Positions 1,824 to 28,103 of a stretch of 28,409 nucleotides of DNA are shown here, piece by piece. The stretch comes from a virus. Made by a program: the position numbers and the translations under genes. The stretch is taken from IMG/VR virus record IMGVR_UViG_3300025889_000715, positions 1-28,409 of that record, one strand, 5' to 3'. The notes beneath the pieces are model-generated. The model was given only the letters and a program-made list of their open reading frames with translations. It was not told the DNA's origin and did no database searches. How positions within the stretch are numbered: position 1 is the stretch's first letter; each line of letters starts with the position of its first letter.

Positions 1824-4079
1824 TTAAACCGCTTTTGTTCCTGCAGCATAAAACCAATTTGTACCATCAGACCAGCATATATACTCTGCAGTACCGGCAG
1901 CATTATCGTTTACAATTCCTACAAATCCAGCTCCTACAGTGGAGGGTTGTCCGAATGCTGTATCGAGCTCGGCATCGGTTGGTGGAGATGATACGTTATC
2001 CGTGACGATGATAGTTCTTAAGCCCGCCTGAAAATCGGTGATCCCCTTGATGACGCTTGGGGCGGTGGTATTCGTATAAATGGCATATTCGGTGTCGCCG
2101 TCAACATCATTGATATAGAGTCCGTATGTTGTAACTGTGCCGCCGAGATTGCTTCCTACGTCGATATAAATTCCATAATTTGTTCGTGTTAGAGTGCCAG
2201 CTGTAAGCGTTCCATTTTGAGATGTTATTATTTTTATGCCATAAAGATTAACATCATATGTACCACTGGCATTATTAAAACTCATGTCATCGCTAACGCG
2301 TATATTCATGCCGTAATAATCGTTTTTTAAATGTCCGGCTGTTGTACAGCTACCGTTAATATCGGTAACTCCATTGTAGCTATACCAACTTTCAACTCCC
2401 GACTGATGATCGTAGCCGGTTGTATATGTCGTATTGTTGGTAACTAAAACATCGTTTCCTATTCTACTCCAATTTGAATCTGAAATCGTACTGTTAAACG
2501 TTTCATTAACGGTGAGTTCCTGGTAGATATTTCGGTGTGTATTTTGATGGGTGCTATCACCTATGTGTCTATCTAGATAAACGAGATCACTTGCAGCATT
2601 TTTATCAAATGGATTCGTACCTCCATTAACATAAACCACGGGGTTATCGATGCTTAGCGTTCCATCGTTTGATACGATATGTAGCCGTGACGTTGGGATG
2701 GCGATATTTATTCCCAAGCTATAGGCGAGATAATTAGGAGCCGCCGCGAGTATATAGAGACCCCAATTATTTGCAGCGCCTGTAACACTCGATAAATAAT
2801 AACCGAAAGCATAATCAGACGTACCTGTGCCATCATGAGCAACGGTGACATAATGCCCGTAGACTCTAGTGTCTGTGAGCGTACCAGCAGTAAGCGTCGG
2901 ATTATAGTTAACATTAATTCTTTCGCCATACACGTTTTGAGCAGCATTCACATAGGAGGCATTATTGTAAGTGGGGAGAAAATCAAAATCGATATCAACG
3001 GCTGCGGCGTCATGGTAGGCGAATGCATCAGCTGCTGTATTTGTTCCTTGAACATTTAATACAATTTGCGCTCCGTAGTTAAAATCTTGGATAAGAAATG
3101 TCGATGACCCCACATGTGAGGTTGTTATGTTATTTGCTGAGTAGTTTGCATATGAATTATAAGTCGCGACAAGATCGCCAGCTGTACAATGTTTTGCAAA
3201 CGCAAGAGTATTAAATATTGAATAGCCTGAAAAGTCAGAGAAGTTATCGCCGACTCCCGTATTTGAAGATACGACTATGAGCCCAATGGCTGGCGAAGTT
3301 GTAGATGAATAGGGATTTGTCGTTTGATCAATGTATGAGATTACGCGGTCAGTTGCGGCTGCGCGCACCTCCAAATTATAACCTGGAGACGCAAGCCCTA
3401 TTCCTAATCGGTTATTAGCGGCGTCGAAGAAAAGGCCGCTATTATCAGTCGAGACGAGTCCATTTGATGCGGCATAAAAAACACCTCCAGCTGTATGGGC
3501 GGCGAGATAAAGATTTCGTGGGCGCGTTGCGCTTGCGGCGCCTATATCATAGGTATTGTCTGCTGAAAAAAGTAAATTTGCATAAGAATAAATATAGGTT
3601 GTATCGTAAACTCGTAATACAGGCGTGCCTCCACCGTCTGCGGCAACTTCAAAGATGATATTTGTTCCTCCGTCTACGAGTCCGTAAACTTTAAAAAGTC
3701 CGCTTGTTGGGTTCCATGTAACACGCGCGTCACCTGAGACGACCCCAGAGTTTGAATAAAGAACTCTCGTATTAGAAATATCTGTGAGTGTGAGAGTGTC
3801 TCCGCTACTTACGACAGGACTTGTACCACCACTTGTGTTTCCGGCGGCGAGAACTGCTGCCCAAGTAGAGGGAGTGATAATTCCCGTATTCGCGATTGTA
3901 ATCGTATCACTTGCGGCAGTACCTGTGATTGAGATTCCTGAGCCTGCTGTGAGCGTAAGAGTATCGGCGAACTGATCAGCAACGACAGGATCTCCGCTTG
4001 TTGGCGTAATCGTTTGAAAGGCATAGAGATCTGGTTCAGTTGCGCATCCACCGCCAGACTTTCTAATCCGAGTGGTCAA
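1824..4079 (-). CDS. putative tail fibre / appendage protein, 751 aa
   Basis: A Ser/Thr/Gly/Asn-rich beta-repeat protein. The N-terminal part has TLTLTAGSGISITGTA and DTITIANTG, and the middle has NRLGIGLASPGYNLEV, a phrase typical of phage fibre proteins that carry beta-helical shafts. Repeated YG(L/I)YI units follow (NYGIYIDVGSN, TYGLYINDVDGD, EYAIYTNT). The C-terminal end, FGQPSTVGAGFVGIVNDN then AEYICWSDGTNWFYAAGTKA, resembles a small terminal domain common in fibre-like proteins. No S74 autoprotease domain is seen. It overlaps the 119-aa gene by ATGA at 4076-4079. It is a likely host-receptor-binding appendage, and a second 750-aa fibre lies at 11833-14085. Confidence 0.7.
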   Translation of the reverse strand: MTTRIRKSGGGCATEPDLYAFQTITPTSGDPVVADQFADTLTLTAGSGISITGTAASDTITIANTGIITPSTWAAVLAAGNTSGGTSPVVSSGDTLTLTDISNTRVLYSNSGVVSGDARVTWNPTSGLFKVYGLVDGGTNIIFEVAADGGGTPVLRVYDTTYIYSYANLLFSADNTYDIGAASATRPRNLYLAAHTAGGVFYAASNGLVSTDNSGLFFDAANNRLGIGLASPGYNLEVRAAATDRVISYIDQTTNPYSSTTSPAIGLIVVSSNTGVGDNFSDFSGYSIFNTLAFAKHCTAGDLVATYNSYANYSANNITTSHVGSSTFLIQDFNYGAQIVLNVQGTNTAADAFAYHDAAAVDIDFDFLPTYNNASYVNAAQNVYGERINVNYNPTLTAGTLTDTRVYGHYVTVAHDGTGTSDYAFGYYLSSVTGAANNWGLYILAAAPNYLAYSLGINIAIPTSRLHIVSNDGTLSIDNPVVYVNGGTNPFDKNAASDLVYLDRHIGDSTHQNTHRNIYQELTVNETFNSTISDSNWSRIGNDVLVTNNTTYTTGYDHQSGVESWYSYNGVTDINGSCTTAGHLKNDYYGMNIRVSDDMSFNNASGTYDVNLYGIKIITSQNGTLTAGTLTRTNYGIYIDVGSNLGGTVTTYGLYINDVDGDTEYAIYTNTTAPSVIKGITDFQAGLRTIIVTDNVSSPPTDAELDTAFGQPSTVGAGFVGIVNDNAAGTAEYICWSDGTNWFYAAGTKAV

Positions 4080-4435
4080 TAGTTTGTCCTCGGGTAAATA
4101 ACGACCATGGTGCCCGCACCCGTTGCTTGCGTATCAAAGGAAACGCGAACGTAGGGTATGCCACCACCGAAGGGGAGTTCATAAAGTCCGCCTGTTGAGG
4201 CTGTTACTTGTGTTGCTCCTGCGGCGGGGCACACATAATCGAAATAGTAGGCTGTTTGCGCGCTTAAACCTGAGTCATAGGTTCCCTCTAGGGTGAAGTA
4301 GACGGTATCTGATGCGAATTTTCCGGCTACGTTTGATATTTGAAGTATGATTTGATCGTGGTAGCCGACGAAGACTTGAGTGGTGCCTGTAGCCCCTGTT
4401 GCGTACTCAAGTTCATAGAATTGAACCATTTCCAT
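4076..4435 (-). CDS. small beta-rich virion-like protein, paralogue-like to 21506-21847
   Basis: A 119-aa protein with alternating hydrophobic residues and many Thr/Gly, as in a beta-sandwich. Its C-terminal motif (IPYVRVSFDTQATGAG) aligns by eye with FPYVKVEFGTAVTGSA in the 113-aa protein at 21506-21847, also near its C-terminus and followed by a similar hydrophobic strand. This suggests the two share a fold and perhaps descent. It is translationally coupled to the 751-aa fibre by ATGA, so it may be a fibre base or adaptor protein. The distant relationship needs a profile comparison. Confidence 0.6.
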   Translation of the reverse strand: MEMVQFYELEYATGATGTTQVFVGYHDQIILQISNVAGKFASDTVYFTLEGTYDSGLSAQTAYYFDYVCPAAGATQVTASTGGLYELPFGGGIPYVRVSFDTQATGAGTMVVIYPRTNY

Positions 4436-6831: not shown

Positions 6832-7227
6832 CTAGACGATAAGACTATCGCCTCTGCCGATGCCATTGCCGCTACCGTCTCCGTAGCCGCTGCCGCTGCC
6901 GTCGCCATATTCATCGCCGCCGCCGCCGCCGTCATCGCCGCTACCGCTACCGCTACCGTCTCCGTATCCGTAGCCACTGCCATAGCCGTAGCCATAGCCA
7001 TCGCCTATGCCGCTACCGTATCCGTAGCCGCTACCGCTGCCGTCGCCATATCCACTGCCATAGCCGCTTCCGTCACCGATGCCGTCTCCGTCTCCGTCTC
7101 CATAGCCGTCGCCTCTGCCGCTACCGTAGCCTATGCCGCTACCGTAGCCGTAGCTGCTGCCATCGCCATCGCCGATTTCGATTCGGTCTCCGTGATGCTT
7201 ATTCTTTATCTTCGATAAATTTAACAT
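6832..7227 (-). CDS. glycine dipeptide-repeat protein, (Gly-X)n
   Basis: After a short basic leader (MLNLSKIKNKHHGDRIEIGD) nearly every second residue is Gly, alternating with Ser, Tyr or Asp for about 110 residues, ending GNGIGRGDSLIV. The ATG at 7227 is preferred; an in-frame start at 7266 would overlap the upstream gene by 68 bases. Such (GX)n sequences may form extended polyglycine II-type helices, as known for glycine-rich phage adhesin tips, or be disordered. Asp-rich stretches could bind calcium, but the RTX nonapeptide (GGxGxDxxx) is not present. A DUF6948-like gene precedes it with a 29-base overlap, so they are co-translated. Confidence 0.6.
   Translation of the reverse strand: MLNLSKIKNKHHGDRIEIGDGDGSSYGYGSGIGYGSGRGDGYGDGDGDGIGDGSGYGSGYGDGSGSGYGYGSGIGDGYGYGYGSGYGYGDGSGSGSGDDGGGGGDEYGDGSGSGYGDGSGNGIGRGDSLIV
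6850..7178. repeat. imperfect 6-bp-unit tandem repeat inside the glycine-rich gene
   Basis: On the plus strand the tract is built of units such as gccgct, accgtc, tccgta, gccata and gccgtc, corresponding to Gly-X codon pairs on the minus strand. The period is 6 bases with degenerate second codons, so it is expected to expand and contract by slippage or recombination. A shortened copy lies at 6397-6450. Confidence 0.75.
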
Positions 7228-7603
7228 AGGTCTTTTCGGCTTTTTCCGTAGTCGGAATGAACTCAATACAGTTTGTTAAATAGACCTCACCCGTTTCATT
7301 GAGTCGACCACCCTTAATGCCGTTATTCGCCACTGCTGAAAGAGAAAGGCCTCCGCCCTCCCACCGCCAAAGACGAAGCGCATTTTTTAGATGACATTCC
7401 ATTTCATTAATTGAAACGACGTCTCCTATATGCACACCAGCCGAATAAGTCCTTACAAGACATCGCCTTCCAATCATAGGATGCGGCTCTTTTATCGTTA
7501 GCGCGCCTTCAAAAAGAGATTTTAGTTTTTTAATATCACCTAATTTTAAATCGTCTATGTTCATTCCTTCTATCCTTTGATGTTGTAACTCATATTGAGT
7601 CAT
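7199..7603 (-). CDS. DUF6948-like phage protein, 134 aa
   Basis: The core HPMIGRRCLVRTYSAGVHIG, followed by VVSINEMECHLKNALRLWRW and LSLSAVANNGIKGGRL, closely follows a family seen in many phage and prophage genomes (consensus recalled as HPFIGK-x-V-VRTYSAGVH-G ... A-RLW-W ... LS-A--G). I believe this is called DUF6948; the name is from memory. The fold should be a small beta-barrel, with no known activity. In other phages related genes are often next to low-complexity glycine-rich genes, as here. Confidence 0.7.
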   Translation of the reverse strand: MTQYELQHQRIEGMNIDDLKLGDIKKLKSLFEGALTIKEPHPMIGRRCLVRTYSAGVHIGDVVSINEMECHLKNALRLWRWEGGGLSLSAVANNGIKGGRLNETGEVYLTNCIEFIPTTEKAEKTYVKFIEDKE

Positions 7604-8690: not shown

Positions 8691-9161
8691 ATGCAAACTC
8701 TTTTAAGAGACCTCAGGCACTCGGACGTCGATATGATATTCTCTTGGAGAAACCACAAAGAAATTGAAAAATGGACAGAAAAAGGCGAAGTCTCAAGAGA
8801 CGAACACTGGAATTGGTACTACGCCTGGGATCGGTCCGCTCCTCGGTGGATATTCGAACTCAACAATAACCCAGTAGGCTTTATTCACTTCAAATGGCTC
8901 GCAGACGCTAAAAGAACGCTCGAATGGTCTTACTACTTAAACCCCTTCGATTTAAACGTGCTCAGGGCAAATGGCTTAGCCACAATCATGCTCTCAATGA
9001 GTCTCTGGAAAATTAATCAAATGCTTCACGATGTGAAAATCATAGGACGCGTAAAACTCCAAAACCTCCCAAGCGTGCGCCTCCACGAAAAACTAGGATT
9101 TAAAGAACAAAAATGCATCGAGAATGAAAGAAGATTCATCAAATGGCCGAAATCATTGTAG
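8691..9161 (+). CDS. GNAT acetyltransferase, PseH-like
   Basis: A 156-aa GNAT-fold protein starting QTLLRDLRHSDVDMIFSWRN, the common opening of the PseH / RimJ-like branch (arginine-Asp loop, then I-WRN). HWNWYYAWDRSAPRWIFEL and NPVGFIHFKWLADAKRTLEW follow, and the acetyl-CoA region is at LRANGLATIMLSMSLWKINQ with SVRLHEKLGFKEQK near the end. PseH acetylates the 4-amino group of the pseudaminic acid precursor. The next gene is a NeuB/PseI-like synthase overlapping by 19 bases, which supports a nonulosonate role, although GNAT substrate cannot be told from sequence alone. A GAGG sequence lies rather far (about 14 bases) from the ATG. Confidence 0.75.
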   Translation: MQTLLRDLRHSDVDMIFSWRNHKEIEKWTEKGEVSRDEHWNWYYAWDRSAPRWIFELNNNPVGFIHFKWLADAKRTLEWSYYLNPFDLNVLRANGLATIMLSMSLWKINQMLHDVKIIGRVKLQNLPSVRLHEKLGFKEQKCIENERRFIKWPKSL

Positions 9162-9787
9162 ATCCTGGCTCAACCCATATGGGAAAACTTAAATACGCTA
9201 AAGAACATATCGATAATGCCTGGCGGGCGGGCGCCCATATCATCAAATTTCAACTCTTCTCAAACCCAAAAGGATATGAGGGAGGTAACATCGAACTCCC
9301 CCTTAAATGGTGGGATGAACTCGTCGCCTACGCCAATAAACGCATTCAAGTCACAGCATCTGTCTTCGATGAAGATAAGCTTAACTTTCTAATATCAAAA
9401 GAACCCCAATACATTAAATTCGCCTACTCAAAAAAACTAGAATCTAAATGGATCGATAAATGCATTCGCGCTGACATATTCCCCATCGTCTCGTGCGATG
9501 TTATGACAGATCACCTCATCTCAAAAGATACAATTAGGCTTTACTGCATCCCAGAATACCCTGTGCGCTACGAGATTGCCTTTGATTCTATTTTCCCACG
9601 ATTCGATGGGTTCAGTGATCATACTCTCGGTATACGTCAATCTGTGCGAGCATTTCAGGCCGGAGCGAAGTGGGTTGAAAAACATACCACCCTTAAACAT
9701 TCTGATGTTAACTGCCCCGATAACTCGTTCGCTGTAAGCTATTCTGAAATAGAAAAACTAGCCTCTCAATTTAGAGCGCCTTACTAA
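9143..9787 (+). CDS. NeuB/PseI-like nonulosonic acid synthase, short form
   Basis: A 214-aa TIM-barrel protein. Family enzymes condense phosphoenolpyruvate with a 6-carbon amino sugar to give sialic, pseudaminic or legionaminic acid. Visible motifs: EIIVDPGSTHMG (residues 3-14; family has AE-G-NH-G), AGAHIIKFQLF (Lys 35, Gln 37), YIKFAYSKKL (Lys 92), YCIPEYP (134-140), GFSDHTLG (156-163, metal His 160) and AGAKWVEKHTTL (173-184, metal His 181), then PDNSFAVS. Usual members have about 330-350 residues with a C-terminal SAF (antifreeze-like) domain; that domain is absent and the gene ends in-frame at a normal stop. The substrate (Neu, Pse or Leg series) cannot be decided. Confidence 0.8.
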   Translation: MAEIIVDPGSTHMGKLKYAKEHIDNAWRAGAHIIKFQLFSNPKGYEGGNIELPLKWWDELVAYANKRIQVTASVFDEDKLNFLISKEPQYIKFAYSKKLESKWIDKCIRADIFPIVSCDVMTDHLISKDTIRLYCIPEYPVRYEIAFDSIFPRFDGFSDHTLGIRQSVRAFQAGAKWVEKHTTLKHSDVNCPDNSFAVSYSEIEKLASQFRAPY

Positions 9788-18407: not shown

Positions 18408-20309
18408 CTATGCGCTCGCTCGTCTACGAGCTCGCAGGATATATTCAATAGCCGCCCGACTTATTTTGAAAGCCTGGCCAGCCGTGTTCTGATTTGTAAA
18501 CTTAAACTTAATGCGTCGTCCGTTCGTTGTGCCGAGGTCGACATAGAATTCCTTTTCCGTATCATTGGCCCCGAAAATATCTACATCCCAAATGGCCGTG
18601 TCCCAAAGACCACCCGATGAAAGAAGATTGATTTGGCTTAACTCTCCATCACCAGGCTCGAAATCTGTTTTCGAATAGACATTCGCATTCCAATTACCCA
18701 AAAGAGTCGCCCAAATGTAAACACCCCTAAAGTCCTTATGATTCTGGGCGTGCTTATCATCTGTATGAAAGTATTTCGTCTCAAAATAAGAATTAATAGC
18801 CGAACCACTATCACTATAGAGACTTGTCTTATCGAGCTCTAATATTTGCCCAACGCCTTCGCCCGACGTGGTGCCGAAGAGTTTGTTGTCAAATACAAAG
18901 AGATGGCCAATCGAGAGACCTGTCCAAGGAAGCCAAGAACCAATTTGCTTAGGTAAAGTCCTTCTTTGATAGTCATAAACATAAATCCTATTATTTGTCG
19001 CATTCGAGTATGGGACGGTGATATAAATCTTATTTTTCCAATGGACGCCATTGATGTCGTTAAAAGCGGCTTTCGAAAAATTAAGGATATCTGGCTCAAT
19101 ACGAAAACTTGCTATTTCTGTCCTGATTCCGCCGATGTCTGTGCTTATAGCTTCATTGGTCGGATTAATTCCTGATAGGGTCACAAATCCTGTGGCATTA
19201 TCAGCAATCATTCCCAAATACATCAATTGATCTTGAAACGTCACATTAAACTGGGCATTCGATCCATAAGAGGTATTTGTCTTAAGAAGAATATAATTAG
19301 CAGGGTCATTGTCAGCTAAATAAAGCATAAATACTTCATTTGTATTCTTAATCATTACAAGTGCGTCGCTTGTCACCCCAAGAGAGGTTATTTTTCCGTC
19401 TCCTTTGCCCGCGAGTTCAAAGTTCGCAGCCTTAAATGTGTAAGGGTTTCCTATCTCTGAATAAAAAACGTTTGACGGATTATCAGGGTCAACAATCCAA
19501 AGTCGATCTTTGTGTGCTTTAATTAAAGTGTAATCCGCAGGACCACCGGCATCTGTGTCGCTCAAAGTGACGAGGTCAGTATCGCTCGTCTCATCCTTAT
19601 AAGTGGTCGTTGAGTTATCTGCTATCTCGTCGACATAATAATAAGTTGTTCCACCTGTTTTCGTTCTATGAACCTGTCTTCGAACAACTCCATAACTTAC
19701 AGGAGCTGTCGGAATACCCGTAAGTGAAGCGATTGAGCTTGTTGTACCAAAGTCGATTGTGACAGCACTGCCTAGATCTCCCACAACCAGGTCTGAGTTT
19801 ACATACGTAAACTTCCACATATAAACGCCCGTATTAGGGCCTGCGGTTGTCGCTGTTGAAACAAGAGCTGCTGATGGGGTCTCTATTTTATGACGAGTGA
19901 AATCTGATCCGTTCCATTTATAGGGCGTTCCGCCATCACTCATATAAAGATAGCCATTATAAGGAGCATAAACGATGTTTGTTTGATTGGTGAAAACGCC
20001 GTCTGCCGAAGGAACCGTGATGAGAGTAGTTCCGGTTGTTAGATACATCATTGATGAGTTGTACCAACAAATTAGCTGACTATCGCCACTCGTAGGCTGA
20101 AAGCTTGTTGCTCCATAAAATGTCCCCGTGCCTAATGTCTGAATCGTAAGAGCGGTTGAACCATATCGCGTTCTAATTGCGCCGGTGTCTTCTGTATCAC
20201 AATTGAGCGTATCTGGACTTTCAGCCACATCGATAACATGCGAATTACTTTTATTATGGAGTCCGCCATCGAAGAATGGGATTTCATAAATGAAACGATT
20301 GTTTGGCAT
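18408..20309 (-). CDS. tail nozzle / stabilisation protein, 633 aa
   Basis: A long beta-rich protein with propeller-like strands: IYEIPFFDGGLHNKSNSHVI, then DTLNCDTEDTGAIRTRYGST. In podoviruses this opening (the protein lists ascending residues of G-L-x-x-K plus G-I-RTR-G) marks the tail nozzle, such as P22 gp10 or T7 gp12 types. HKDRLWIVDPDNPSNVFYSE and the repeated DNK/YDYQ strands continue the pattern, and the end is basic (YILRARRRASA). It is coupled to the adaptor gene by a TAATG overlap. The nozzle closes the portal channel and carries fibres. Confidence 0.75.
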   Translation of the reverse strand: MPNNRFIYEIPFFDGGLHNKSNSHVIDVAESPDTLNCDTEDTGAIRTRYGSTALTIQTLGTGTFYGATSFQPTSGDSQLICWYNSSMMYLTTGTTLITVPSADGVFTNQTNIVYAPYNGYLYMSDGGTPYKWNGSDFTRHKIETPSAALVSTATTAGPNTGVYMWKFTYVNSDLVVGDLGSAVTIDFGTTSSIASLTGIPTAPVSYGVVRRQVHRTKTGGTTYYYVDEIADNSTTTYKDETSDTDLVTLSDTDAGGPADYTLIKAHKDRLWIVDPDNPSNVFYSEIGNPYTFKAANFELAGKGDGKITSLGVTSDALVMIKNTNEVFMLYLADNDPANYILLKTNTSYGSNAQFNVTFQDQLMYLGMIADNATGFVTLSGINPTNEAISTDIGGIRTEIASFRIEPDILNFSKAAFNDINGVHWKNKIYITVPYSNATNNRIYVYDYQRRTLPKQIGSWLPWTGLSIGHLFVFDNKLFGTTSGEGVGQILELDKTSLYSDSGSAINSYFETKYFHTDDKHAQNHKDFRGVYIWATLLGNWNANVYSKTDFEPGDGELSQINLLSSGGLWDTAIWDVDIFGANDTEKEFYVDLGTTNGRRIKFKFTNQNTAGQAFKISRAAIEYILRARRRASA

Positions 20310-20962
20310 TAAACAAGTCCTAATGTGTTCGCAATACTTTGGTCCTCACTTTGAACAATGTTAAAGTGATCGCGACGACGTCTCTCTTGCATAAATTTGC
20401 GCATGTCCTCTAAAGAAGATCGCCAGAGTGTTAAATGATCATTCGCCCTCGCTGAATCGCCTTCTTTGAGATAAATCCTATAGGTAACGTAATCTACGAA
20501 ATAATGATGTAAAACTATAGGTGCAGCTATTGTCGTGCTTACCGAAACAGCATCATGATATTTATAACCGTAAAGCTTGATCGTATCGCTACTCGTGTCA
20601 GGCGTAGGAACAAGCTTAAGATTATCTCCGAAAAGATTGTAATGTCTCGGAGTCCCCGAAGCTGGATCTGATGATATCGCTGATTGAAGCTTATCAATTT
20701 CAACAAGAGTCGAAGGCCTAAGCTTTAGATTATTGTATTCAACTCTTTTAATAGAAATGAAGCCCGTTGGGAGCGTATAGTCTGCCTGATCGGCTACGCT
20801 TGTAAGGCTAGAGCTGTCCGTTGCTTCAATAATGAGAGCTTTTGCTGCCGCCTCATTGAGACCGAAAGTTAAATAGGAATAAAGTTCACTATCAGAAACA
20901 AAGGTTGATCCTTCGTTATTGCTCGCCTGCCTCGCCGCTGTGATGATCTCTAGTGCTGTCAC
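20309..20962 (-). CDS. head-to-tail adaptor protein, 217 aa
   Basis: GTG at 20962 starts MTALEIITAARQASNNEGST, then FVSDSELYSYLTFGLNEAAA: a helix, a short loop and a second helix, the standard opening of podovirus adaptor proteins (T7 gp11 and P22 gp4-like group). The central beta part has DYTLPTGFISIKRVEY and LKLVPTPDTSSDTIKLYGYK, then a helical C-terminal half (VDYVTYRIYLKEGDSARAND) and a basic RRRRDHF. It binds under the portal and accepts the nozzle, whose gene follows by TAATG. Its start lies 47 bases inside the preceding gene. Confidence 0.7.
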   Translation of the reverse strand: MTALEIITAARQASNNEGSTFVSDSELYSYLTFGLNEAAAKALIIEATDSSSLTSVADQADYTLPTGFISIKRVEYNNLKLRPSTLVEIDKLQSAISSDPASGTPRHYNLFGDNLKLVPTPDTSSDTIKLYGYKYHDAVSVSTTIAAPIVLHHYFVDYVTYRIYLKEGDSARANDHLTLWRSSLEDMRKFMQERRRRDHFNIVQSEDQSIANTLGLV

Positions 20963-21850: not shown

Positions 21851-22120
21851 TTAATACCCATAGACCGTTACGATTAACTCATCTCCACTTGCCGCTCCAG
21901 AAATACCGACCGTCCCTACGATGGATGTTCCAGAAACACCTTCATTCATCGCAAATTTAATTGACGCTGTTGAGGCTGATTGAAGCCCAACTGATAGGTC
22001 GGTAATGTTTTGAAGTCCAGTTTCCCATGACCCCGTCGCAGCGTCCGCTGTGAGTCGAGCACTGATCTTGCGCTGATTGCCTACAACGTTTGAAGCAAGT
22101 GCGCTTACTGTATATGCCAT
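21851..22120 (-). CDS. small beta-rich virion-like protein, 89 aa
   Basis: It starts MAYTVSALASNVVGNQRKIS and ends GISGAASGDELIVTVYGY, with Ser/Thr/Ala-rich strands between. Small proteins with this opening (a strand, then VGN-R) and the closing GDE-x-V-x-VYG are common in capsid clusters of phages, as far as I recall. They are probably decoration or head-completion proteins. It lies directly downstream of the Maf-like gene (12-base gap). Confidence 0.55.
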   Translation of the reverse strand: MAYTVSALASNVVGNQRKISARLTADAATGSWETGLQNITDLSVGLQSASTASIKFAMNEGVSGTSIVGTVGISGAASGDELIVTVYGY

Positions 22121-22132
22121 ATATTCCCTTTC

Positions 22133-23200
22133 CTAAAATAAAACGATACCATTCTCAGTGGTATCGAGGTTTTCTATATTCTCTTTGAGTCTATCCGATA
22201 CTCGATAGGATTCTAAAACATCTTCTATGTGCTTTTGAATGATGCTCATGATATTGCCTTGTTCATAGGCCCCCATACAACCGTCACTACAGTTAATATA
22301 AACACCAGGCACATGCATTGATTTGAGATCGAACCAACTCTTAAAATTGTAATAACTGGCCCAAGTTTTCACTTTGTTCCCATAGATATCTCGAACGTTT
22401 AAGACCTGTCCCATCGTATCATATTTCGAGTCAAACGAATGGAACTTGTGATCGTAGGAAAAGCTAAAGTCAGCTCCCATAAATATGACCGGATTGCAGC
22501 CAAAAATAGCTTTCGCAGCATAAAAAGAGCCGCCTAAAACATTGCCCCCAGAAGAGATATAGAGCTCAAAGGGCTCTATTTTCTTCATCTTCTCTCTTAA
22601 ATCTGCATTCGGCAGAACTGATTGAAACCAGATCTTCTCGCCCAACCAGTTTGCCCAAAGACGAGGATTAGTTCCTACGTAACTTAAAAGCTTCTGATTC
22701 TTTGAGGCGTTTCGATAGAACTCTTTATCAATGATCTTCTTCTCAGCGTCGAGAAACTTCGTAGCGCCATCGAACATCTCATCAATCACGACCTCTCCAC
22801 CGTCGAGAGTCATCCAATAGTCGATTTTAACTCCAAGATCAGTGAGATAAGCAAAGTTATGAAGCGCTGAAATGGTAAGAATGCCAGGGTTTCCGAGATA
22901 CTTAATCCCGTTCTCTTCGAAAGGCCTTAAATGTTTCGCATAATGCTTAAGAGAAGGGCCTGAGCCAATACATATGACAGGTTGATTCTGATATTTCTTA
23001 TACAGCTTCTGAATACCGTTTTCTTTAAAACTACCCGCAATTTCTTTATTGGCAGCCATGTTGCGGAGCCAAATGTCCTGAAAGAAATCTAATGTTTTTT
23101 GATCGTTACTCACCGTTTGCTGATGAAGGTCGTTCATAGGTATCGGTGGTGATACGATCGGTGGTTGGTATTCGAGATGTATGTCACATGTTCTTTTCAT
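22133..23200 (-). CDS. Maf/MptE-like (DUF115) glycosyltransferase-type protein
   Basis: A 355-aa protein of the DUF115 / 6-hydroxymethylpterin diphosphokinase MptE-like group, which includes motility-associated Maf proteins. VICIGSGPSLKHYAKHL (Gly-rich nucleotide-sugar loop, residues 76-91), YWMTLDGGE (about 128-136) and SGGNVLGGSFYAAKAIFG with CNPVIFMGADFSFSYDHKFH (217-254) are the expected core motifs. Maf proteins transfer pseudaminic or legionaminic acid from CMP donors to Ser/Thr of flagellin. It lies inside the capsid operon, after the terminator that follows the decoration gene. Its ribosome site is weak and overlaps the terminator U-run. The substrate is inferred from the NeuB-like and PseH-like genes elsewhere in the window. 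Confidence 0.75.
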   Translation of the reverse strand: MKRTCDIHLEYQPPIVSPPIPMNDLHQQTVSNDQKTLDFFQDIWLRNMAANKEIAGSFKENGIQKLYKKYQNQPVICIGSGPSLKHYAKHLRPFEENGIKYLGNPGILTISALHNFAYLTDLGVKIDYWMTLDGGEVVIDEMFDGATKFLDAEKKIIDKEFYRNASKNQKLLSYVGTNPRLWANWLGEKIWFQSVLPNADLREKMKKIEPFELYISSGGNVLGGSFYAAKAIFGCNPVIFMGADFSFSYDHKFHSFDSKYDTMGQVLNVRDIYGNKVKTWASYYNFKSWFDLKSMHVPGVYINCSDGCMGAYEQGNIMSIIQKHIEDVLESYRVSDRLKENIENLDTTENGIVLF

Positions 23201-23203
23201 AAC

Positions 23204-23237
23204 TTAAAAAAGGGGGGGCATTTCACCCCCCAAGTTT
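23204..23237 (-). terminator. intrinsic terminator after the capsid/decoration genes
   Basis: On the minus strand a run of G (complement of C at 23226-23231) pairs with C (complement of G at 23212-23218) around a 7-base loop, followed by T6 (complement of A at 23206-23211). The stem is flanked by A and T runs and could also work in the other direction. It begins right after the decoration stop (23239) and stops 4 bases before the Maf-like start. It would lower read-through into later genes and keep capsid expression highest. Confidence 0.8.
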
Positions 23238-23238
23238 T

Positions 23239-23739
23239 TTATATCAACGGATAGAGATACATTGCACCAGATGAGCTTGTTGCGATGGCACTATTGACAT
23301 AGCCAATTGCACCGATGTGTGCAGCCAAGCCTGCAGTTGCATGTCCTGTCGGAGCTGTGCTCGTAGCGGTTCCGTTAGCCGCTTGGTGAACGAAACTTCC
23401 AGCCGCAAGGTTAGAAGTTACTTCCACTCGAGGACACCAGCCACCCACGAGCATCCAGAAATATTCTCCAGTTGCTACTTGTGAGTGAACAGCCACCCCA
23501 ATGGGTCTGGCATTTGTTGCTGCTGATTGTGTGATTGTATAACCACTGCAAGCAGTCAAAGGATGGACAAAATGCCCCGCTGTAATAGCTGTATTCGAGC
23601 CATTATAGGCAAAGACATATTTGGCCGTTCCATAACAGCCACTTCCAGTTACCTCCACAACGTCACCGACAGCGTGCTTTTGTGAGCCGCTGGCAACGAT
23701 GGCAGAGATTTCATGATGTAGATTAATTAATGCATTCAT
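23239..23739 (-). CDS. capsid decoration-like protein, 166 aa
   Basis: A small beta-rich protein: VGDVVEVTGSGCYGTAKYVF, SAATNARPIGVAVHSQ, GWCPRVEV, HAAIGYVN-like end (AAHIGAIGYVNSAIATSSSG). It sits directly after the major capsid gene, where head decoration proteins usually lie, and has a strong ribosome site (AAGGAGG about 10 bases upstream). Several Cys (GCYG, ACSG, GWCPR) may form disulfides. It is rich in Ser/Thr/Ala. DUF2190-like proteins (recA-named in databases) have similar size and place; membership is a guess. Confidence 0.65.
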   Translation of the reverse strand: MNALINLHHEISAIVASGSQKHAVGDVVEVTGSGCYGTAKYVFAYNGSNTAITAGHFVHPLTACSGYTITQSAATNARPIGVAVHSQVATGEYFWMLVGGWCPRVEVTSNLAAGSFVHQAANGTATSTAPTGHATAGLAAHIGAIGYVNSAIATSSSGAMYLYPLI

Positions 23740-23754
23740 GATTCATTTGCCTCC

Positions 23755-24675
23755 TTATGACGTTAATGCGCCTGATTTCGCTTGCATTCGTGGGTTCGAA
23801 CAAACAAGAGCACCAGCAAAGAAAATTCGCGCTGTCATAACTGCCTGTTTACCTTCATCCATGAATTTACGGAATCGGAAGTTTTCGTCTTTATGAATCG
23901 CCAAGAACAAATAGTTCTCATTGAGGAAGAACAAATGACTCGACGGGCACTTTTGGTCCACAACAAAGGGTCGTCCGTTAAACATAAGTGAAACGAATCC
24001 ACCCTTAGCGCTGTCAGAATCCTGAAAGCGTTGTTGAGGTTGAAGTTGTCCATAGTAGCGATTGTAAATCGACTGAGTGGTCACGCCAATAGTGGGCATG
24101 TCCGAATCAATCGATGCCGCTCCCCATTGCGATTGCATATGAGAAATGGACAAAGTGGTTGTCGTGCTGTCCTCTTGAGCAGAAGCCCATGAGTTTGAAG
24201 AACGATCAACACCACCATAAGTTCCAGCGCTATCAACCGCCAAACGAAGTCCAACGATTTGATTCGCGGTCGTTCCTGCGTTGTAAAGAGCTGTACCAAG
24301 AGCATCTTTAATGGTCATTTCTGCAGCATTGATCTTTTCTTTAACGAAATTGACCTTTGCCTCAGGACCAGAGTTCTTGAGTTCATCGATTCTTGTGATA
24401 GATATCGGCACTTGTGCTTGCTTCCATAGGAATTCAAAAGCACTGAATTGCTCGACATCCGTTGTGTTAAGTGTTTCTGCTCCGCTAAACCATACGTCAG
24501 AGCTCGATTGAGCATACATGACTGGTTGAAGGACGCGCTCGCCTCCGCTTAACTTCACTGAACCTTTCTTAAGCATTCGAGACAATAAAACGTTTGATTG
24601 AAAAATATTGTCCACGAGCTTTGGGAGAAAGTTCTTAGCAGTTATCGAGGAGATTTGATCGTAAGTTAGAGCCAT
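23755..24675 (-). CDS. major capsid protein (HK97-fold type), 306 aa
   Basis: It begins MALTYDQISSITAKNFLPKL, then VDNIFQSNVLLSRMLKKGSV, the pattern of phage major capsid proteins whose N-arm precedes the first HK97-fold domain. ERVLQPVMYAQSSSDVWFSG, the E-loop-like region, and the central WKQAQVPISITRIDELKNSG follow, with the A-domain-like end KCPSSHLFFLNENYLFLAIH and MTARIFFAGALVCSNPRMQA. The ribosome site GGAGG with 9-base spacing is one of the best in the window. The scaffold gene is just upstream (5-base gap), as expected. Confidence 0.85.
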   Translation of the reverse strand: MALTYDQISSITAKNFLPKLVDNIFQSNVLLSRMLKKGSVKLSGGERVLQPVMYAQSSSDVWFSGAETLNTTDVEQFSAFEFLWKQAQVPISITRIDELKNSGPEAKVNFVKEKINAAEMTIKDALGTALYNAGTTANQIVGLRLAVDSAGTYGGVDRSSNSWASAQEDSTTTTLSISHMQSQWGAASIDSDMPTIGVTTQSIYNRYYGQLQPQQRFQDSDSAKGGFVSLMFNGRPFVVDQKCPSSHLFFLNENYLFLAIHKDENFRFRKFMDEGKQAVMTARIFFAGALVCSNPRMQAKSGALTS

Positions 24676-24680
24676 AATAG

Positions 24681-25529
24681 CTAACCTCCAGTTATACCAA
24701 GTTCTTTCAAGGAGAGTTTTGTTAACTCATCATAGCTGGTGTCTTTAAGACTCTTCTTCGTTTGAATCGTATCCTTTAAAGAAAAAGCTCTATTCATAAT
24801 AAGCCCCTTCTTTTGATTCGCCTTAAGTTCTTCTAATTTCTTACTGACAGCGCCTTCCGCTTTTTTGTTCGCCCATTCATCCCCATAAAGGTCTAAAAAG
24901 GCCGCCCTAAAAGAAGGAAAGTTGCCATCCGAGAGATGTTTAAGAACCTTGTGCTCTACGGTAAAACCGAATTCGTCTTTATGATTCCAGTCTATTTCAG
25001 GAGTTGAGTCTCTCCATGATTTAATTTGCCGATCAAGTTCTTGATCTTCACGCTCTGAGCGTAATTGATCTTCTCGCGTTTTGATTTCACCGACAGCTCG
25101 CTCAAGACTCGATAATTTCTGCATGATAGGATCATCGGAGACTTCAGTAGGAGTTGTTTGGCGCTTCTCATATTCCGCTTTAATGAGTTCAAGCCAATCG
25201 GGGTTTTGACGAGCAAACTCATCAATTTTCCGCAATTCTTGAAATCGATTTGGGTCAAGATCGGCGTAGTCTTTCTTTTGTAGTTCTAAAAGCTCGCGCT
25301 CCTGTCGGAGTAAGCGATTATTAATTTCATAATCGAGTCCCTTTTGAGCCAGACTAAGAACCTCAGTCTCCTCTTTCTCGAACTCTTCACCGCCCCTTTT
25401 GAGTTTAAACATTTTCGGAGCAGGTTTTTCTTCTGTTGCCTCAGCGTCAGAAGATAAATCAGGAGTCTCCGAAACGCTGTCCAGTAGGGCTTGAGTATCG
25501 TCAGCCGCTAGATTTGTTTCGTCTTCCAT
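24681..25529 (-). CDS. scaffolding protein, 282 aa
   Basis: Acidic N-terminus (MEDETNLAADDTQALLDSVS, DLSSDAEATEEKPAP), then a charged helical core (KGLDYEINNRLLRQERELLE, RLRSEREDQELDRQIKSW-type region) and a basic C-terminal end (KLEELKANQKKGLIMNRAF, ending LKELGITGG). Acidic N-terminal plus helical core plus basic tail, between portal and capsid genes, is the podovirus scaffold pattern (T7 gp9, P22 gp8). The ribosome site is AAGGA close to ATG. No protease motif was seen. Confidence 0.75.
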   Translation of the reverse strand: MEDETNLAADDTQALLDSVSETPDLSSDAEATEEKPAPKMFKLKRGGEEFEKEETEVLSLAQKGLDYEINNRLLRQERELLELQKKDYADLDPNRFQELRKIDEFARQNPDWLELIKAEYEKRQTTPTEVSDDPIMQKLSSLERAVGEIKTREDQLRSEREDQELDRQIKSWRDSTPEIDWNHKDEFGFTVEHKVLKHLSDGNFPSFRAAFLDLYGDEWANKKAEGAVSKKLEELKANQKKGLIMNRAFSLKDTIQTKKSLKDTSYDELTKLSLKELGITGG

Positions 25530-25541
25530 ATAAATCCTTTT

Positions 25542-25892
25542 TTAAGCAGGTATACCTCGGCCACCTGATTCTTGTGGAACCGGACCTTGAGGTGATGGTT
25601 GTTCTTCTTTTTTTCCGCCCATATCAATACCAAGAGCATCTTGGATCGATGCTACAAGTTGATCGCCCGAAGCAAGAATTCCCTGCAATTGTTCATCCTT
25701 TGCATTAAGCTTTTGAGCGACAAGAGCAATCTTTTGAATTCTATCTACGAGTTGAACGACTTCTTTTGCGACCGCATCACTAAGTGCTTGTGCCTGATCT
25801 TGTGAAATCGCCCCATCTCCTGCGACCTGAGCCGCATCTTGACTTCCATCCCTCGGTGGAACAGGTACTATTTTTCTACTATCCGCTGGCAT
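25542..25892 (-). CDS. small helical protein between portal and scaffold, 116 aa
   Basis: It begins MPADSRKIVPVPPRDGSQDA and has a helical core (QDQAQALSDAVAKEVVQLVD, RIQKIALVAQKLNAKDEQLQ) with a Gly/Pro-rich end (GGKKEEQPSPQGPVPQE). The ATG lies 14 bases inside the portal end and follows AGGGGG, so the two are co-translated. Position suggests an assembly cofactor or a minor head protein. No family was recognised. Confidence 0.55.
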   Translation of the reverse strand: MPADSRKIVPVPPRDGSQDAAQVAGDGAISQDQAQALSDAVAKEVVQLVDRIQKIALVAQKLNAKDEQLQGILASGDQLVASIQDALGIDMGGKKEEQPSPQGPVPQESGGRGIPA

Positions 25893-27756
25893 TTGGTGCC
25901 CCCTGTTGTTGAGCCGCAGCCTGAGCAGCGGCCTGTTGTTGTTTTTCTAACTCCGAAGCGATCTCATCGGCATTCGGATAATCTAAATCTTTTAAAAGCC
26001 TACGAGGTGTTAACACTCCTAAGCTAAATAACTTCATTGCTGTGTCGGCCTTTGCTCGTTTGGCAAAAGGTAGATTGGATCCTATGGTCGCCCTTACGTC
26101 AAAAATACCACGGGTTCGAAACTTCTTCTCAACTCCCATTTGGCTTCCACCCTCTTCTGAGGGGAGAACTTCTTTAACTTTTGCGATATAAAAGTCGACA
26201 TTTTCTGGATCCTTGTCGATCTGAAATTTGAATTGCCGAACGTCAAGCCCTTCATTCTCAGATCTTATTGTAACAAGTCTTTCCGTATTGTAAAACTGCA
26301 TGACTCTACTCACATAGAGCTGTCCAATCTCATTAAGGAACTTCTCAAGATTACGCGCTTTTTGCCTTATGCGCGTTTGAGCAGCTTCTTGAAGAGATTC
26401 AATCGCTATTCCTGATGTAACCCCCCCAGGGGTCGCCCCTTGAGAGACCTCACCCGAGCCAAACACACGATCAAAAGCATCTACTGCTAGCTGATAAACA
26501 GAAAGTACATTAGCTGGTAGCCCAACTCCTGGCTCCCTATGAACGTCAGAGCCGGGTGTTTTTTCAACAATGAGGCCAGGCTGATTCGTAACCTGATCTG
26601 TATCGATTGATCCCATGTCACTGATCCATATTGGATTACCCATGAGCACGATCGCATCCATCATAAAAGAGATAAGACGGTTAACCATTCTCTGTGGACC
26701 CTTGAGCTGCTCCACCTCTCCCATGCCCCAGAACTCTCTCGGGATCTGATAATCGACAAATCGGGCATAGGGAAAGCTTCCATCCTTGTAAGGATTATCA
26801 TCGTCATGGGCGAGCATATTATCGATAATCATCACATAGCGCCCATTAGGATATTTCTTACGAAGGACCTTCTCCTCCTGCTTGTCGTTTTCTTTTTCAC
26901 CGTCCGGTTCAAATGAAGCTGAACCCTCTAACGTGTCCGCAGCAATGTCAGACTCCTCCATTGAATCATCTTGTATCCAACACTTTATGAGGAGAGACTC
27001 TTTGAGTTTCTCCGCTTCTTGATTTGTAAAAGCTGACGCTGCGTCGTCAGTGGCTTCATTCGACCGGATGGCGTTCGAGTTTAGGCTTACGTCGAAATTA
27101 GTTTTATTAAACTTGCTTGGTATACCGCTTTGAAGTGTGCCGTTAATCTTCTCAGCAAGTTCTGGAAACATGGCCCTCGCCTCTTCAACGGGAATGGCCC
27201 TTGCTTCAATTATATAGGGACAGCTTTTATCATTTACATCAAGAGCACGAGGTGCTGGATAGAATTCGTAATTATCAACACACCTAAAAACAATCTTTCC
27301 TTCTGGCTCATCAATGGTTGGATCGAATTCAAGAGCTCCTATTGCCGTGCCATAGATGAGTCCTGTTTTGATGATGTCGGTAAGGACGTGAGACCACCCG
27401 TAGCGTGTCCACTCACTGTCTGCTAGTTTTTTAAACGCCTCTGCGAGATCTCTATCGTCGATATCTTCTGGGATGAAATCAATCTGAGGACGGTTATCGT
27501 TCATAATGGGGACAACTTGCTCAACCGCCGAGAACACAAGATTAATGACCTCAGAGTGTCGATACGTTGGCCGTCTATAGGGCCACTGCCTTCCGAGATA
27601 GAACTCGAAGTTCTCATCCCATTTGGCTTCTTTAACTTTTCGTGCTTTTCGTGCTTTTTCAAAGAGCGAGTTCACCATTTGAACAACTTCTTGGTCTTCT
27701 CGGCTTTGGTCTTTGTCCAGAATATCTAAAGAATCATCTTTTATTTGGTCTGCCAC
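25879..27756 (-). CDS. portal protein, 625 aa
   Basis: A podovirus-type portal. QMVNSLFEKARKARKVKEAK, then WDENFEFYLGRQWPYRRPTY (about residues 27-66) is the opening clip and stem pattern (helix, W...F..G.QW). EVINLVFSAVEQVVPIMNDN and PQIDFIPEDIDDRDLAEAFK follow, then LIYGTAIGALEFDPT and NYEFYPAPRALDVNDKSCPY. Later, PFARF-like SFPYARFVDYQIPREFWGMG and ISFMMDAIVLMGNPIWISDM are present. The last 30 residues are Gln/Ala-rich (KQQQAAAQAAAQQQGAPNA). Twelve subunits form the DNA gate at one capsid vertex. It overlaps the FmdB-like gene by 16 bases. Confidence 0.85.
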   Translation of the reverse strand: MADQIKDDSLDILDKDQSREDQEVVQMVNSLFEKARKARKVKEAKWDENFEFYLGRQWPYRRPTYRHSEVINLVFSAVEQVVPIMNDNRPQIDFIPEDIDDRDLAEAFKKLADSEWTRYGWSHVLTDIIKTGLIYGTAIGALEFDPTIDEPEGKIVFRCVDNYEFYPAPRALDVNDKSCPYIIEARAIPVEEARAMFPELAEKINGTLQSGIPSKFNKTNFDVSLNSNAIRSNEATDDAASAFTNQEAEKLKESLLIKCWIQDDSMEESDIAADTLEGSASFEPDGEKENDKQEEKVLRKKYPNGRYVMIIDNMLAHDDDNPYKDGSFPYARFVDYQIPREFWGMGEVEQLKGPQRMVNRLISFMMDAIVLMGNPIWISDMGSIDTDQVTNQPGLIVEKTPGSDVHREPGVGLPANVLSVYQLAVDAFDRVFGSGEVSQGATPGGVTSGIAIESLQEAAQTRIRQKARNLEKFLNEIGQLYVSRVMQFYNTERLVTIRSENEGLDVRQFKFQIDKDPENVDFYIAKVKEVLPSEEGGSQMGVEKKFRTRGIFDVRATIGSNLPFAKRAKADTAMKLFSLGVLTPRRLLKDLDYPNADEIASELEKQQQAAAQAAAQQQGAPNASG

Positions 27757-28103
27757 ACGATCCCCTCAGCTAAGCTTTTCAGTCTATTATCATCTTTTAT
27801 TTTAGCCGATTCTTCAAAACCTTTTACTACGCTTTCGACGGAGGCGTTTTCAAGTGGTTCATATCCATGATGCTTCGCGTAGTCCTTCATGTCTTTTTCG
27901 TTTTTGAATCGCCTTCCAAACGCTACCGAATGAAGTGGGCCCTGATCAATATGACCAACCCTAAGACGCGTGACAATCGGGATCATCTTCATATTTTTCG
28001 TGCCGCAAGCCCGGCAAGATCTCATAACGGGCTTCTCATCGCTTAAAAAGAAGCATTCCTCTGTAAACTCACAATCCTGGCACTGATAATCATAGATAGG
28101 CAT
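27741..28103 (-). CDS. FmdB-like zinc-ribbon protein, 120 aa
   Basis: The N-terminus MPIYDYQCQDCEFTEECFFL then MRSCRACGTKNMKMIPIVTR gives two CxxC pairs (Cys 8/11 and about 30/33), the pattern of FmdB-family regulatory zinc ribbons (MPIYEY-C--C). The rest is helical and charged, with FGRRFKNEKDMKDYAKHHGY similar to a helix often seen in phage versions. It lies between terminase and portal, starting by TAATG at the terminase stop. In phages the family may act as an adaptor in packaging or as a regulator; neither is shown. Confidence 0.8.
   Translation of the reverse strand: MPIYDYQCQDCEFTEECFFLSDEKPVMRSCRACGTKNMKMIPIVTRLRVGHIDQGPLHSVAFGRRFKNEKDMKDYAKHHGYEPLENASVESVVKGFEESAKIKDDNRLKSLAEGIVWQTK

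Follow-up and report, generated by a model that had tools for sequence, protein, structure and literature searches.

Flagellin O-glycosylation by Maf transferases, with pseudaminic or legionaminic acid as the sugar, has been described for Aeromonas Maf1, Campylobacter PseD/Maf4, Clostridium CbMaf and the Magnetospirillum Maf glycosyltransferase (PDB 5mu5). Maf puts nonulosonates on surface Ser/Thr residues of flagellin (PMC11339370), and the flagellin is glycosylated in the cytoplasm before its export (PMC4065374). As sugars of CbMaf, Neu5Ac and Kdo are reported (PMC11339370). Virion glycosylation is known from mycobacteriophages, where, in the form in which Freeman et al. 2023 is cited in PMC12619734 and PMC12363180, phage glycosyltransferases act on capsid and tail-tube proteins of the phage that encodes them. 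The locus described here joins elements of both, and it is likely that it encodes a system, carried by the phage itself, for O-glycosylating the virion in the manner of flagellar Maf.

The window analysed, 28,409 bases in length, is one IMG/VR virus record and a linear fragment; its source virus is an uncultured short-tailed phage with a portal and adaptor of the P22/SU10 type. The head operon lies on the minus strand and runs from the terminase end through a Zn-ribbon protein, the P22-type portal, a putative scaffold, the major capsid protein (MCP), a 166-aa protein, Maf, an 89-aa and a 113-aa protein to the SU10-type adaptor (Table 1). The Maf/MptE-like gene that a preliminary description of this DNA had placed in the capsid operon is indeed there, and both the gene call and its coordinates are correct. 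Family searches (Pfam, PHROG) with the putative scaffold gave no match. The Zn-ribbon protein between terminase and portal (27741-28103) is FmdB-like, with a score just under the cut-off, and clusters in 17/24 relatives. The 113-aa protein, whose gene follows the 89-aa gene, has a small Ser/Thr-rich paralogue elsewhere in the window that adjoins a 751-aa putative tail-fibre gene (1824-4079); the same small gene is duplicated in relative G005 as well. Positions 6832-7266 encode a 144-aa low-complexity repeat protein rich in Gly, Asp, Ser and Tyr (GYGSGYGDGDGSG...), for which no family match was obtained.

Table 1. Features of the head operon and of the nonulosonate genes in the window.
Feature	Coordinates	Strand	Evidence
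Mini-Maf glycosyltransferase (predicted), PF01973, 355 aa	22133..23200	-	PF01973 50.6 bits; structure model; closest PDB fold 5mu5
Capsid decoration / head-fibre-base-like protein, 166 aa, proposed acceptor	23239..23739	-	Model pLDDT 82 and Foldseek
Intrinsic-terminator-like hairpin, decoration gene/maf junction	23213..23231	-	GGGGGG..CCCCCC, then T-run
Small 89-aa gene directly downstream of maf, second candidate acceptor	21851..22120	-	Family in 15/24 genomes
Small Ser/Thr-rich protein, 113 aa	21506..21847	-	Cluster 31; paralogue at 4076-4435
Major capsid protein (MCP)	23755..24675	-	phrog_9953 209 bits; PHROG major head protein E 2e-61
Putative scaffold, encoded between portal and MCP	24681..25529	-	Position and conservation in 22/24 genomes
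Portal protein, P22/SU10 type	25879..27756	-	PF16510 160 bits; phrog_156 216 bits
SU10-type adaptor protein	20309..20962	-	PF24175 83 bits
NeuB/PseI-type nonulosonate synthase (predicted), short form, 214 aa, no SAF domain	9143..9787	+	PF03102 75.5 bits
PseH-like GNAT acetyltransferase (predicted), overlaps NeuB start	8691..9161	+	PF13302 56 bits; TIGR03585 PseH 59.4 bits

The PF01973 score of the window Maf exceeds the gathering cut-off of 34.6 bits (E 2.4e-13), and the homologue in relative G014 scores 82 bits. Its predicted structure is confident (pLDDT 91.9, pTM 0.90). Foldseek comparison of this model with the PDB ranked 5mu5 best (E 1.6e-10), archaeal MptE/HPPK (8sd5) second (E 5.1e-4) and the human sialyltransferase ST8SiaIII third (E 2.4e-3), and a sequence-profile search with the Maf family ranks its matches alike (5mu5 1.9e-4, MptE 0.097). 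Since the fold and profile matches both favour 5mu5 over MptE, we read the phage PF01973 protein as a putative reduced Maf. It has 355 residues compared with 632 in 5mu5, with a TM-score of 0.30 when normalized by target length, and it does not have the three-domain layout of bacterial Maf proteins (N-terminal Rossmann-like, central and C-terminal helical domains, about 630 residues). The NCBIfam model PseD gave no match for the window Maf and was the best named match, at 17.9 bits, in a relative. In an alignment of 20 members the invariant positions include D33, W44, H114-N115, D121, D133, N220, Y227, D244, W280, K287 and N303. Uncultured phage proteins annotated as 'MptE-like' in BFVD share the fold of the window Maf (best E 2.7e-11) but are only 11-15% identical to it, and tblastn searches of INPHARED with the window Maf or with that of a relative retrieved nothing.

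Relatives of this Maf were found in IMG/VR by a single-protein search, then with a two-sequence alignment, which gave 42 loci, and with a 20-sequence alignment, which gave at least 150 matching stretches. Loci were also fetched by the MCP instead of by Maf. The order MCP, decoration gene, maf, 89-aa gene is found in 64 of 75 such loci, and the Maf family is present in each of the 42 MCP-fetched records of at least 11 kb that were tested, while both Maf and NeuB are missing from 11 INPHARED phages whose capsid family is 26-31% identical (e.g. Mx9, BUCT555 and a Bradyrhizobium phage). Maf is therefore a core gene of one lineage. Some of the capsid-sharing phages that have no Maf carry a gene for a GNAT-type acyltransferase among their tail and structural genes (L005:10669-11076, L004:11920-12366 and L328:9611-10015; Mx9, BUCT555 and Rhizobium RHph_I3_18).

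We then asked how regularly a nonulosonate pathway accompanies Maf, the co-occurrence check that the preliminary description had put forward. NeuB was present in 20/42 Maf-fetched records, many of them short, in 21/42 MCP-fetched records and in 9/10 further long records. Among Maf-positive records at least 30 kb long, NeuB is found in 26 of 27 and a class-III aminotransferase in all 27. A PseB-like dehydratase (PF02719) occurs in 16 of 19 records of that length and a cytidylyltransferase (PF02348) exceeds the cut-off in 17 of 19, with one further weak match; the GNAT was seen in 12 of the 24 mapped genomes, fragments included. The same searches of 50 controls, comprising 39 arbitrary IMG/VR contigs and the 11 capsid-sharing phages, found NeuB in none, Maf over the cut-off in none and a PseB-like dehydratase in one. 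After removal of near-duplicates the comparison for NeuB in records of at least 30 kb from the first two samples is 18/18 versus 0/50 (Fisher's test, 8e-17), a value which rejects chance but, all members being related, counts no independent gains. Co-occurrence of Maf and NeuB by chance is thus rejected by the controls, and the proposed association has held up among relatives.

Gene maps of 24 records show what the pathway consists of. A cassette, c17-c19-c18-c16-GNAT, is contiguous in many genomes and holds a Polysacc_synt_2 dehydratase, a Gfo/Idh/MocA-type protein, a CTP_transf_3 cytidylyltransferase, a class-III aminotransferase and a PseH-like GNAT. The dehydratase scores 243 bits with Polysacc_synt_2, and its best NCBIfam model is PseB, at 232 bits and below the cut-off of 408. 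For the GNAT the best NCBIfam model is PseH (TIGR03585), at 59 and 71 bits, below the cut-off of 93.1. The aminotransferase belongs to class III (PF00202, 159 bits), whereas PseC is of the DegT type, and the PseG hydrolase was found in 0/27 records. The product is best called a putative sugar of the nonulosonic type; within that type we leave it unnamed, because PseG is missing from 27/27 records and the aminotransferase is of class III. The position of NeuB varies: the gene usually stands just before the terminase, lies inside the cassette in G027 and G041, and forms a pair with the GNAT in the window and in G005. That NeuB has been retained although its position shifts argues for a function. 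By tblastn against INPHARED the window NeuB retrieved nothing and that of a relative two records only: a Moritella contig, and the marine single-cell virus AG-345-L05 (149 kb), whose NeuB-like synthase (MH319754.1 87479-88135) is a rare instance outside the lineage. INPHARED matches to the aminotransferase and the dehydratase were set aside as generic homologues, several of them in records resembling host contigs. A resemblance to host contigs is likewise seen in large 'phage' records that contain genes of ordinary bacterial metabolism, among them OR844991.1, OR844989.1 (Staphylococcus phage SA 1306 Kay) and CAKLQF020000007.1.

The window itself holds a smaller part of the pathway. The GNAT and NeuB genes form an overlapping pair on the plus strand about 12 kb from maf, so that both enzymes named in the preliminary description are present, with the reservations that the NeuB is short and has no SAF domain and that the PseH score stays below its cut-off. 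The NeuB family profile finds the pseudaminic acid synthase 8h2c as its best PDB match (1.6e-61). Short forms without the C-terminal SAF domain occur in the window, G005, G027 and G041; the window protein keeps the Lys/Gln/His/Asp core (K35, Q37, K92, H160, H181 and D193) and carries Asp at position 7, a site that Glu occupies in most other members of the family. With its core residues kept, the short form is regarded as a putative synthase. Neither dehydratase nor cytidylyltransferase was found in the 28-kb window, which of the pathway holds only Maf, the GNAT and the short NeuB. In G005, the nearest long relative, the same GNAT-NeuB pair is accompanied by the cassette upstream of the terminase, and the genome of the window's phage probably has the cassette too, in a region outside the window; a scan for a contig extending beyond the right end of the window found none.

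The same set of genes could serve another surface. The sugar might be made to change the surface of an infected cell or a lysogen, at its capsule, LPS or flagella, as in superinfection exclusion or serotype conversion, and Maf might then have flagellin or another host protein as its target. Acinetobacter phage and prophage enzymes that modify nonulosonates of the host capsule are known (PMC12053666, PMC6586298), and the O-antigen clusters of Legionella Sg6/Sg12 have a similar gene set, as far as the account in PMC3694923 extends. Among the mapped genomes with the cassette, an integrase is confirmed in one, G014, and four others have homologues of it. We nevertheless regard host-surface remodelling as unlikely: maf is locked between the decoration gene and the 89-aa gene of the virion operon in nearly every member, a position that suits a late virion function, no flippase, polymerase or membrane glycosyltransferase is seen beside the cassette, and many records have no integrase homologue. 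The integrase of G014 is of the tyrosine type (L082:11222-12304, c27), and the same genome encodes an N6/N4 DNA methylase (L083:1700-2872, c24); homologues of these recur across the lineage. As integrase homologues recur, some members may be temperate. Two GTDB genome scans found no prophage; their single match was a 3.5-kb contig from an Actinomycetota bin.

If Maf acts on the virion, its neighbours are the obvious candidates for an acceptor. The model of the 166-aa protein (pLDDT 82) matches the base of the phi29 head fibre gp8.5 (3e-5) and the capsid of Haloferax virus HFTV1 (4e-5) in a Foldseek search of the PDB, followed by cyanophage Pam3 (4e-4), Sf11 (1e-3) and T1 (1e-2), with lambda gpD/SHP weaker. 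All nine matches at E <= 1e-3 are capsid proteins of phages or archaeal viruses. The gene directly upstream of maf, which clusters in 20 of the 24 mapped genomes, thus models as a putative capsid decoration protein. Downstream, the 89-aa gene starts 9-17 bp after maf where it is present; its family is very diverged, and a single-sequence scan with the protein returned only itself. The Ser/Thr-rich flanks on which the preliminary description had laid weight are indeed enriched (19-21% Ser+Thr in the neighbours of maf versus 10-12% in enzymes). This enrichment is not distinctive, though, and as evidence on its own it was rejected, because Ser+Thr is just as frequent in other beta-rich structural proteins encoded by these phages and the property is too common among beta-rich virion proteins. 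At the junction of the decoration gene and maf the window has a G/C-rich hairpin with a T-run, and strong hairpins of unrelated sequence occupy the same junction in G002, G005, G010/G011, G041 and G021; most other genomes have none there. The hairpin might, tentatively, be a step-down that keeps the Maf enzyme under the level of the capsid proteins.

We think it improbable that Maf has its target away from the head surface, be it DNA bases or another phage component such as a tail fibre or an ejected protein. Glycosyltransferases of DNA-hypermodifying viruses are known, to the extent that Pyle 2024 is represented by its citation in PMC12619734. Ser/Thr content is highest in the tail-fibre cluster (25.6%), and a paralogue of the 113-aa gene adjoins a tail-fibre gene. 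Yet maf itself adjoins head genes and not those for tail fibres or replication, and a partial scan of the genes revealed no base-modification enzymes. More improbable still is that the PF01973 protein is an MptE-type pterin pyrophosphokinase or some other enzyme that is no glycosyltransferase, with NeuB present by coincidence: the Pfam name, the second-best fold match to MptE/HPPK and a conserved TLD-G stretch resembling a metal-binding DLD-type motif point that way, but the fold and profile matches to Maf are stronger, with the human sialyltransferase next in rank, the linkage to the nonulosonate pathway is near-universal and seen in none of the controls, and no pterin-pathway gene turned up among the genes scanned.

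Taken together, the co-occurrence, the fuller pathway in relatives and the fixed place beside the decoration gene support the proposal of the preliminary description that the phage sugar-coats its own virion; from the genes, folds, linkage and co-occurrence observed we infer the glycosylation activity, the donor sugar, the acceptor and the benefit. Virion O-glycosylation by Maf would then proceed as follows. A GlcNAc-derived precursor would be converted by phage enzymes to a CMP-activated nonulosonic sugar, similar to sialic or pseudaminic acid, through the PseB-like 4,6-dehydratase, the class-III aminotransferase, the PseH-like acetyltransferase, the NeuB/PseI-type synthase and the cytidylyltransferase, with the absent hydrolase step supplied by the host or by another enzyme. 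The small soluble Maf, expressed from the head operon late in infection, would transfer the sugar, within the cytoplasm, to Ser/Thr residues of a protein on the virion surface. As the cytoplasm is also where phage heads assemble, head proteins would be directly accessible to a phage Maf. The acceptor that requires the fewest assumptions, we suggest, is one of the two proteins encoded on either side of maf, most likely the decoration protein directly upstream and possibly the 89-aa protein downstream as well. The outcome would be a negatively charged, sugar-coated head, and one may speculate that shielding, solubility or adhesion is the benefit.

A bolder statement, to which we give about even chances, is that the system is obligate and defines a whole lineage of uncultured podoviruses, represented by at least 150 IMG/VR contigs: a non-canonical nonulosonate route, with a class-III aminotransferase, a Gfo/Idh/MocA-like protein and no PseG, would work together with a minimal Maf acting on a capsid decoration protein, so that a flagellar machine would have been domesticated as a virion coat. 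If the reading is correct, phages took over the machinery of flagellin sialylation to sugar-coat their own heads, and virion glycosylation extends past the mycobacteriophage cases. A Maf this reduced, with a small and defined acceptor encoded beside it, would be suited to solving how Maf chooses its targets. Surface charge or glycan mimicry would then matter to environmental phages, for particle stability, for adhesion to mucus or biofilms, or for escape from recognition by hosts and grazers, and the near-fixed presence of the pathway suggests that the coat is important to the lineage.

Compared with the flagellar Maf systems, the phage system shares the PF01973 core fold, the linked dehydratase, acetyltransferase, NeuB/PseI and cytidylyltransferase genes and, with the phage acceptor a proposed one, the action of a soluble enzyme on a repeated surface structural protein. 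It differs in that its maf is a head-operon gene coding for 355 residues instead of about 630 and neighbours a predicted capsid decoration protein rather than flagellin, in that its aminotransferase is of class III and not of the DegT type, and in that it has neither PseG nor flagellar genes. The O-antigen cluster of Legionella pneumophila Sg6/Sg12 is a close bacterial precedent for the pathway: within what PMC3694923 sets out, a GNAT, a class-III (HemL-like) aminotransferase, a cytidylyltransferase, a CapD-type dehydratase, NeuB and dehydrogenases stand together there, but the cluster serves bacterial LPS, has PseG and is presented with no mention of a Maf. The preliminary description knew of no system of this composition, and in the literature searched, in which subscription journals are thinly covered, we likewise found no described phage system with a Maf and its own nonulosonate pathway. 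It is this combination that is new here, phage virion glycosylation as such being already established for the mycobacteriophages; for these, the articles citing Freeman et al. 2023 describe no link to Maf or nonulosonates, whereas the lineage described here carries on the phage both a predicted Maf-type transferase and most of a putative pathway for its donor sugar.
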